DNA of 64,000 nucleotides from the NCBI GenBank assembly GCA_025602915.1, contig JAHLJZ010000098.1, forward strand, positions 23,290 through 87,289, in the 5' to 3' direction. Below the pieces are notes generated by a model. It did not search any database, was not told the origin of the DNA, and saw only the letters and a program-made list of their open reading frames with translations. Below are positions 25,382-28,980 of this stretch, piece after piece. The number at the start of each line of letters is the position of its first letter. Within the stretch, counting starts at the first letter, position 1. Origin of the DNA: Paraphysoderma sedebokerense. Taxonomy: Eukaryota; Blastocladiomycota; Physodermatomycetes; Physodermatales; Physodermataceae. A program made the translations under genes and the position numbers.

Positions 25382-28300
25382 ATGGATTCGTTATCTGTCC
25401 CCGATGGGAATATTGTGCCTTCTAATACCCCATGTTCTCAACGACGAACAGTTAAATTGGCTGATAAACTCGGCATTCAGAATCGCAGTGATGTTAAAGT
25501 TTTGGAACACTTCGCGACAGATATGGAATTCCCAGTCACTGAATATCTGGTGATCATCTAGTGTTTTTTTAAAATATATTCCAGATAATGTTTCATTATC
25601 TCACAAATCCCTCGTCCCTACTCTTTTCTGATTGATATCATCTTTTAATCGTTTCAGAAATCGCGCACCGAAAAACTATCCAAACTCAACAAAAAACTCG
25701 GTGTTTCCGATTCTGAATTGTTGGCTCAAGAAGACAACGAAAGAGATGATAATAAATACAAATCACTCAAAAAGAAGAAGGTGTTTGTTCGAGGTTCTAT
25801 GGGCTCTAACGAAGGAGTCGATGATAAGGTATTGCCTATCCTTGTGTTAAATCGGCCTTCTCGTTGTCATATAAACTCTATCAATGCTCACTTTAATTCT
25901 GTTATCTTGGTGTAATATTCGACAGGGTTTACTTATAGTACCTCGTACCGCTGGCCATGTCAAAGCCGCTAGTGATAATGCCTTGGATCCAACTCCGAAT
26001 GAGCAATTATCACCTCTTGAGACTAAACCGTCGATGGATGGAGATCGCTTCAGAACAGGAAAATTGGCAGATTTTTTCGGTGTCGAAAGTGATGATCGAG
26101 TAGGCGAAATTAGAAAAATGGTGAAAGCAGAGGTATAAACATGCTTTCTTACACTCTGATTTCTGTTTCAATTTTATTCATTCAGTTTTTCTTCAACTTT
26201 ACATCTATTATGTCGATGTTCATTATACGATTATCTCTGGCGTTCTCCCTCATCGCTGTCCCTCTCTTAAGAATGCCCTCCCCCGGCGCAAAACAGACAG
26301 TCCCGGTCCTTCTTTCTCCGTTCGAATCAACTTTGTGAACGACACATACACATGCCTGGAGCTACCGCTCACCCCTACGTTTACAACGGCGTCATACGTC
26401 TCCTCTATTATTTGCAACAAATTGATGATTACTGAAAATCCCGACAAATATGCCATATATGAAGTTACTGACGGAGGAAGTATGCTTTCAAGATGCTATT
26501 ATTGATATGCTCTTACAAGTTCACCAATCCTGATGTTAATTTGCATCAATGTCATCACAGAGGAACGAGAGTTGGATCAAAATGAAGTCATGTTTGATGT
26601 AATGCGACTCTGGTCCCAGAATGAGAAATTTTTGTTCAAACGAAAACCTATCCGATCAGTATCTGATAGCGAGGTTCGATGGCAGCTTCCATCATGCCTT
26701 GTACTCTATTTACAATCCTAACCATCACTCTTTTCTTCTCGTCCCTCCTCTACACATTGGCTGTCCAAATTCCTATGAATCTCAGTCAATCGACGAGGCT
26801 GTAACGGCCGAAGTATCGACACGCAAAACACAAAAACAAATTGCGAAGTTGGTTACGTTTTTCGGCATATCTAATGACGCCGGAAACAAAGAAATCGCAA
26901 AACATCAGAATGAGCTCGAGGCGTTGTTGACAATGTTAAATGATAGCCCTACTGGTATTAATACCGTGGAGTTGGAAAATTTGCGAAAAAAGGTATGTCA
27001 CTCCATTCTCCCGTCGTTGACGACATGAGAAGATGACAAACGTCACCTGTTAATTCTTGTGCTGTCTTCCTTTCTTATTTGTTACTTGGTATACCATACA
27101 TGTTGTTTGGCAGGATATCCAAGTTGATCGAGTGAATAAAGAAGGATGGTTGCACGAACGGAGCGCGGATGGTATTATCGGCTCATCAACTGAATATCGA
27201 ACCATTTGGGTTTCGCTTGATGGAAATACGTTATCCTTGCGTCGTATGAAGTCGAAGGAAGAAGCGGTATCGCCTTCAATTCCTGCGACACAAATTCAAT
27301 TATTGGGTTGCATTGCGGAAATGCTACCCAGTCGACCAAATCCTAAAAAGTACAAATTCGTAATTAAAAGAACTGAAGATCAATTTGTATTGGCCACACT
27401 TGGAGCACTCCGACAAGAAGAGATCAAGGACTGGGTAGAGGCAATTAACAATGCTGTGCCTCTAGAATCAGCACAACAAACGCAACAATTGCCTTCGCGA
27501 CGAGAATCCTCAATGTCCCTGAAAAATCATAAAGTCGGTATCGCGGATTTCGACTTCCACTGTGTTTTAGGTAAAGGTAACTTTGGTAAAGTACTTTTGT
27601 GTTCCCACCGCCCCACCAAAAAACTCTACGCCATCAAAATCATTCCAAAATCACACGGTCCAAACGCTATTGCATCCGCGCAAGTAGAATCTAAAGTTCT
27701 AAGATCTATCAAACACCCGTTTATCGTCGGATTACATTTCGCGTTTCAGAATCAAGAAAGATTGTATCTTGTGATGGAGTACGTGAATGGTGGAGACTTG
27801 TATTTTCATTTATCGCACGAACGAAAATTCACGGAACGAAGAGTACGGTTTTATGCCGCGGAGATGTTGTTGGCGTTGCAAAGTATTCACGGAAAGGGAT
27901 TAGTTTATCGGTTTGCTTCTCAGCTTCTTTTATTTTCTTGAAATAATATGAACTAAACGTATTCCTATAGCGATTTGAAATTGGAGAACATTTTGTTATC
28001 AAAAGACGGACACATCAAAATTGCTGATTTTGGGTTATGCGGAAAAGAAGGGATAGAGAGTGAAATTTTGTCAGGAACAATTGAATATTTCGGTAAGTTT
28101 ACCAGGAAACTTGGATAGATCATATTAGAACAATAATAATTAACAGTTGATTGATTTGCTTTCATCCAATGATGTAGCACCAGAACTTTTCCGAGGTAGT
28201 CCATTCACTTTTGCGGCGGACTGGTGGGCTTATGGAATTGTATTATTCGGTATATTACATTTCTTTGATTTAACATGCTGCAAAATTGGTTTAAAGATAG

Positions 28301-28980
28301 TGTCTACTTTATCTTTAGAACTCCTTTGCGGATTCCATCCTTTTTATCATGCCATACCGGAACATCTTTGCACTCTTATCACTTCAGCCCCATTGACATT
28401 TCCACCCGACATTTCTCCCGTTGCTAAGAACTTTCTTTCCCGTTTATTAACACGCGACCCGGAAAAGCGATTAGGTTCCGGTCCTTGGGGTAGTAAGGAA
28501 ATACAAGACCACCCTTTCTTTGAAGGGCTAGATTGGAACAAACTTTTTAAATGCGAGATAGAGCCGCACTGGAAACCCGATATTGATAATGATTTCGACA
28601 CTAAATATTTCGCAGAAGAATTTACAAATGAAGGAATCCATCATGAAGGCGAAACTCAGGGATTGTTTGGAAGCCTTCATCGAAGCAGTTTTGTTAATTC
28701 CTTGCAAAGTGCACTTTTGTTACACTCCACAGAACGCGATCGAAAAGTTAGTGGATTTTCTTTCACAAATATCCACAATCATCTTCAGCATTGCGACGAC
28801 AGTGGTAGAAGTGAAGAAGATAACGGTGGCAAAGATTTAACGGAAACCAGATCGAGTGAGAACAATTTGAATGCCCTTGATACTAGAAAAGAAATCAGAC
28901 GACACTCGTTCTCTTCAAGATTCGGAATCCAATCAAAAGGAAAAACTGAAACTGGAAACCTCGATATCGGGAGACGATGA
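25382..28980 (+). CDS. RA-PH-AGC protein kinase (Akt-related)
   Basis: Ten exons (25382..25549, 25658..25828, 25926..26132, 26272..26479, 26561..26658, 26786..26992, 27114..27910, 27971..28092, 28178..28249, 28319..28980) encode 903 aa. A Ras-association-like domain spans about residues 195-285 ([46 protein letters not shown]). A PH domain spans about 358-455 (KEGWLHE ... DWVEAINN). The kinase spans about 498-755: [53 protein letters not shown] is typical of Akt. The activation segment reads [11 protein letters not shown], so the usual T-loop threonine before the CGT-like motif is Ile. A C-terminal VSGFSF resembles the hydrophobic motif. Expected role: a membrane-recruited Ser/Thr kinase downstream of Ras-type GTPases and phosphoinositides. 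The exon 4 acceptor (TTAAG) and exon 5 donor are the least certain junctions. Confidence 0.87.

Follow-up and report, generated by a model that had tools for sequence, protein, structure and literature searches.

A predicted RA-PH-AGC kinase with an Akt-type core in Paraphysoderma sedebokerense

Signals from Ras usually reach Akt through PI3K, PDK1, and TORC2. Many RA domains bind GTPases, the contact with Ras being assigned to their beta1-beta2 part, and the Grb7/10/14 and MRL (RIAM, lamellipodin) adaptors carry an RA domain followed by a PH domain in close tandem, without a kinase domain. The PDK1 site of Akt is the Thr of KTFCGTPEY (T308 of Akt1, in an excerpt of PMC12002173), and the hydrophobic motifs of Akt and SGK1 are given as FPQFSYSAS and FLGFSYAPP, respectively, in an excerpt of PMC5618247.

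In the ancestor of opisthokonts, the PHLPP family added PH and AGC kinase domains to its RA-LRR-PP2C set, some unicellular holozoan homologues have a C-terminal kinase (RA-PH-LRR-PP2C-AGC kinase), and PHLPP was lost in fungi, as stated in excerpts of PMC12002173 and repeated in excerpts of PMC13358185; the former describes what the PHLPP kinase domain means for function as still unclear. The SIN1 subunit of mTORC2, the complex that phosphorylates Akt, binds RAS through an RBD-PH tandem. According to the excerpt of PMC9583166 that also reports this, RAS binding by the tandem is 5- to 10-fold weaker than by the isolated RBD, membrane binding was weakened by RAS, and Akt S473 phosphorylation showed no RAS-dependent increase.

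Here we describe a gene of P. sedebokerense, found in a window of 64,000 nt (the whole stretch of contig JAHLJZ010000098.1 that was analyzed), whose predicted product joins RA, PH, and AGC kinase domains in this order. The original prediction held that no standard Akt, PKC, or SGK with an RA domain was known. This needs to be narrowed, because the holozoan PHLPP homologues already carry RA, PH, and AGC kinase domains on one chain and in the same order (excerpt of PMC12002173). In those homologues LRR and PP2C domains lie in between, whereas the present protein matches neither; LRR and PP2C were absent among the 9 Pfam families found at E <=1 in its 908 aa and in the 8 neighboring frames scanned. 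We judge the compact form without LRR-PP2C to be a new variant of a published architecture. An RA-PH-AGC kinase without LRR-PP2C was not found in the titles and abstract openings of the open-licence papers listed, which is weak evidence of absence.

Among the closest systems is Akt/PKB, which also places a PH domain before an AGC kinase domain, shares the KEGWLH start, and is the best PDB match over aa 365-795 (among the best 60 of 2726 matches). Unlike Akt, the present protein adds an N-terminal half of ~360 aa with RA and repeat motifs, has Ile at the position of the activation-loop Thr, is without a turn-motif S/T-P, has an altered hydrophobic-motif candidate, and has changes at two of three PH lipid residues. 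SIN1/Avo1 of TORC2 resembles it in having a Ras-binding domain and then a PH domain upstream of an Akt-type kinase, but SIN1/Avo1 is a separate subunit acting in trans, whereas here the analogous module sits on the kinase itself. The likeness to the Grb7/10/14 and MRL adaptors that had been proposed for this protein holds for the order of RA and PH and is otherwise loose, as ~80 residues, including the fourth repeat motif, separate the two domains, and a kinase is fused. Finally, the RA segment weakly resembles RASSF5 DKFMVVDNPQKFALFK and scores 16.2 bits against RASSF8-10_RA, below the cut-off of 27; unlike the RASSF family, the protein shows no SARAH match in its Pfam scan and has a fused kinase.

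Gene model and genomic surroundings

A single frame on the + strand, running from ATG 25382 to TGA 28980, encodes 908 aa in a conceptual splice of 10 exons, and the kinase gene predicted at 25382-28980 thus begins and ends exactly as had been proposed. In-frame stops lie close upstream of this ATG. The splicing is a model built from raw genomic sequence with predicted exon junctions, in which all nine introns are GT...AG, measure 60-139 nt, and maintain the frame across every junction. An artefact of a frame-shifted or broken gene was considered and rejected because the chosen junctions are all in frame. Intron 4 (26480-26560), inside the RA domain, is 81 nt long, a multiple of three, and has only one in-frame stop. 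The main features are as follows.

Exons 1-5, + strand: 25382-25549, 25658-25828, 25926-26132, 26272-26479, 26561-26673
Exons 6-10, + strand: 26786-26992, 27114-27910, 27971-28092, 28178-28249, 28319-28980
26272..26673, + strand: exons 4-5, carrying RA (aa ~197-285), between phase-0 introns (Pfam RA; intron phases)
27114..27910, + strand: exon 7, with PH, a linker of ~30 aa, and the kinase N-lobe, uninterrupted by an intron
27132..27461, + strand: PH domain, aa 365-474 (Pfam PH; co-linear with the Akt PH)
27546..28521, + strand: AGC kinase domain, aa ~503-756, exons 7-10 (Pfam Pkinase; Akt best in PDB)

A Pfam domain search for RA, PH, and Pkinase returned all three above their curated cut-offs and, under the splice model, in one frame, which agrees with the proposal that they belong to one protein.

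Several other genes share the window. A DENN domain extends across two frames at 374-1188, presumably split by an intron, and a tandem pair of genes that look alike by eye occupies 14337-17271 and 18204-20840, with a class 3 lipase match in frame 16347-16901 of the first copy. Frames at 21365-22402 match the Mnd1 HTH and the leucine zipper with capping helix and are likely a meiotic Mnd1 gene, while a methyltransferase gene of at least 2 exons lies divergent to the kinase gene at 22921-24005 (- strand). Two large, related genes on the + strand (30658-36382 and 59632-62900) have translated frames that are closely alike by eye; the former has TIG and cadherin-like/Big_9 domains and is probably located at the membrane. 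CBF/Mak21-type frames are also among the neighbors, with MAK21 as first match; two other frames gave no match. Nothing was found in tRNA and Rfam scans of the 64-kb window.

The Akt-type core and its regulatory sites

The kinase domain scores 216.2 bits against Pfam Pkinase PF00069 over aa 509-756 (cut-off 31.7), and all the catalytic elements are there, namely the glycine loop GKGNFG, K533, E550, D625, D643, and APE. The YRDLKLEN motif noted previously is found at aa 623-630, spanning the exon 7/8 junction. Over aa 365-795, Akt chains with PH are the best PDB matches (up to 314 bits), and kinase-only Akt chains reach up to 305 bits, whereas the best PKC reaches 262, followed by ribosomal S6 kinase alpha-3 at 261, SGK1 at 254, and RPS6KB1 at 229; closeness is judged here by PDB bit scores among the best 60 of 2726 matches, from which Ypk1 and Sch9 are absent. 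The assignment of an Akt-type catalytic domain is upheld by these scores and by the catalytic motifs. Identity to human Akt2 amounts to 140/296 aligned residues. The alignment to Akt runs co-linearly through both PH and kinase and includes an identical KEGWLH. With its catalytic residues in place, the kinase is probably active. When the 265 residues of exon 7 were searched against genome contigs, 8 bacterial MAG loci were matched at 25-39% identity, starting at exon-7 residue 124 at the earliest and thus in the kinase part with its linker; viral contigs gave no relatives, whether for the RA region or for exons 7 and 10.

Two further features concern the regulatory sites of the kinase.

28026..28092, + strand: activation loop, inside exon 8 (alignment to Akt2; sequence)
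28522..28980, + strand: C-terminal tail, aa 757-908, without S/T-P, with VSGFSFTN at aa 832-839 and RDRKVS before it

In the PDB alignment, Ile656 stands at the column of the Thr that PDK1 phosphorylates in Akt, and GTPEY of Akt becomes GTIEY here. Like Glu373 and VSGFSF discussed below, Ile656 is read from this one protein sequence. Relative to Akt2, the activation loop has four residues deleted and one inserted and is a net 3 residues shorter. Splicing does not explain the loss of the Thr because the whole stretch from DFG to EYF sits in exon 8.

The AGC tail is recognizable at its start. A turn-motif S/T-P is absent from aa 776-908, and in an ungapped extension against Akt, the turn-motif position would presumably hold Glu798. 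A sequence resembling the hydrophobic motif, VSGFSF, occurs at aa 832-837, with Val in place of the first Phe of FxxF[ST][YF]; when the 118-residue tail was shuffled 20000 times, 1.0% of the resulting sequences contained the pattern [FVLI]xxF[ST][FY]. This candidate begins 45 residues past the Thr of EEFT, a spacing that we take to exceed that of Akt.

The PH domain reaches 27.0 bits against Pfam PH PF00169 in the joined protein and 31.3 bits (E 3.2e-7) as an excised segment (cut-off 25.1). Searched alone against the PDB, it scores 20.2 bits with Tiam1 and 19.5 with ARHGAP21, and lower with the PH domains of Akt2 (14.0) and Akt1 (13.8). Lys14, Arg23, and Arg25 are presumably the basic PIP3-binding residues of the Akt PH domain, and in the alignment to Akt2 they correspond to Glu373, Glu385, and Arg387. 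Two of the three are therefore changed, and one Arg of the pair remains even with a register shift in the gapped loop. The exchange of Lys14 and Arg23 for Glu makes PIP3 binding of the Akt type appear doubtful, and the proposal that the protein reads phosphoinositides is not shown by a PH domain with this set of residues. The PH domain may have other lipid or protein contacts.

The RA domain and the surrounding repeats

Among Pfam-A families, RA PF00788 matches the 908 aa at 30.0 bits (cut-off 21) and RA_2 at 27.3 (cut-off 27), and the excised segment reaches 33.8 bits (E 5.2e-8). The match agrees with the proposed location of RA at residues ~195-285, with aa 220-281 aligned to positions 27-92 of the 93 in the profile. 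The first 26 positions are unaligned, and the part that is missed is the beta1-beta2 half. Between Arg200 (beta1) and Lys232 (alpha1), the region holds no Lys or Arg; these two residues themselves stand at positions that we take to be basic in Ras-binding RA domains. With an RA match starting only at profile position 27 and this gap in basic residues, the claim that the protein reads active Ras is not shown. Four PDB matches were obtained with the RA segment at E <=10, namely ApcF (0.13), two myosin-I heavy chain chains (0.22 and 0.23), and RASSF5 (1.1), so sequence matching to solved structures is not by itself enough to assign the segment to RA. In the weak RASSF5 alignment, the Lys of its aligned strand faces Thr/Cys in this RA domain. 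Single-sequence AlphaFold2 gave low-confidence models for the RA region with intron retained (mean pLDDT 43.2) and for exon 7 (36.1).

A short repeat, [RK]TxK...[FL]G[IV], occurs in four copies. Three of them precede RA, and the fourth lies in the stretch that links RA to PH. All were located by pattern search.

25445..25477, + strand: repeat copy 1, aa 22-32
25664..25705, + strand: repeat copy 2, aa 59-72
26052..26084, + strand: repeat copy 3, aa 156-166
26825..26869, + strand: repeat copy 4, aa 303-317, after RA and before PH

The four copies compare with 0.0032 expected, and 0/5000 composition shuffles reach four; these statistics are descriptive because the pattern was one of four tried and was picked after inspection, with the strictest matching one copy only. 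In a MAFFT alignment of the four repeats, K, L, and G columns are invariant, and mean column identity is 45%. The related pattern [KR]L..[FL]FG has two occurrences in six frames of the 64-kb window, both within the kinase gene, and Pfam returned nothing above its curated cut-off on the repeat regions. Our guess is that the repeats provide a short membrane or protein contact.

Proposed working and origin

We propose, with about even confidence, that the protein is an Akt-type AGC kinase, with a PH-linker-kinase core and a regulatory N-terminal half of repeats and RA, that is held at membranes bearing Ras-family GTPases and works independently of PDK1. RA and PH, possibly assisted by the repeats, would keep the kinase at a membrane bearing an active Ras-family GTPase, and this recruitment, or relief of PH-kinase autoinhibition, would then expose an already competent kinase. 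We take it to be already competent because an activation loop without the PDK1 Thr would close the usual route of activation. Fine control is possible through phosphorylation of Ser836 of VSGFSF in a TORC2-like manner. The precedent of the SIN1 RBD-PH tandem, the three domains above their cut-offs in one frame, the best kinase scores being those of Akt, the co-linear alignment to Akt, the Ile at the T-loop Thr within one exon, and a tail that has VSGFSF but no S/T-P argue for this reading, from which membrane recruitment and PDK1 independence would follow. Against it stand the Ras-facing half of RA lying outside the Pfam match, a PH domain without two of three Akt lipid contacts that is by itself nearer to Tiam1 and ARHGAP21, the Val-initial and distant candidate for a hydrophobic motif, and the SIN1 precedent itself, with its weaker RAS binding by the tandem, membrane binding weakened by RAS, and no RAS-dependent increase at Akt S473 (excerpt of PMC9583166).

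As far as can be judged from the sequence, RA is the weak point of this mechanism, its Ras-facing half being the part that appears diverged. We infer that it may bind a Ras-family GTPase, given Arg200 and Lys232 and the GTPase binding of many RA domains, and we consider it rather unlikely that RA is instead a structural or scaffold module or a binder of another small GTPase, with PH and repeats giving the membrane contact and the Akt-like kinase not directly regulated by Ras. That alternative would fit the late start of the Pfam match, the weak alignment to RASSF5 as the nearest RA-family PDB chain with its Lys facing Thr/Cys, and the precedent of vertebrate PHLPP, whose RA domain is retained with a diverged Ras surface (excerpt of PMC12002173). 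A separate or alternative transcript for the RA exons, with a kinase protein of PH and kinase alone, is highly improbable. The lengths of exons 2, 3, and 6, and of exons 4 and 5 taken together, are divisible by three, and phase-0 introns bound each of these units, so in-frame skipping of exons 4+5 to an RA-less isoform is possible, as is a shorter product starting from a Met in exon 6. However, the open frame of exon 7 has no Met ahead of the PH domain and so depends on exons further upstream, stops interrupt the RA frame inside introns 4 and 5, inter-exon gaps are at most 139 nt, and the chosen junctions keep the frame. The simplest reading under the splice model would therefore be a single transcript joining the RA exons to the kinase exons.

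The gene might descend from the PHLPP gene of the opisthokont ancestor (RA-PH-LRR-PP2C-AGC kinase), with LRR and PP2C dropped and the lineage not wholly lost in this clade, which would account for the shared order of RA, PH, and AGC kinase published for holozoan homologues (excerpts of PMC12002173 and PMC13358185). We regard this descent as quite improbable, as the PH domain and kinase N-lobe share one unbroken exon with a 30-aa linker. A fused Akt-type core appears preferable because neither the protein nor the 8 neighboring frames scanned yielded an LRR or PP2C match and because PH and kinase form one Akt-like co-linear block. A bolder reading, which we hold to be distinctly unlikely, is a Ras-gated, PDK1-independent Akt in which GTPase binding by RA replaces loop phosphorylation as the on-switch and short-circuits Ras-PI3K-PDK1-Akt; such a protein might be what remains of the opisthokont RA-PH-AGC gene, whose loss from fungi has been reported.

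The joining of RA and PH domains to an Akt-type kinase without the usual activating Thr suggests an Akt cousin that is turned on directly at the membrane and not via the usual upstream kinase. If this is true, an RA-bearing Akt-type kinase without a PDK1 site would show a more direct wiring of the Ras-Akt chain, and it would also inform the question of how the three domains were assembled into one protein in opisthokonts.
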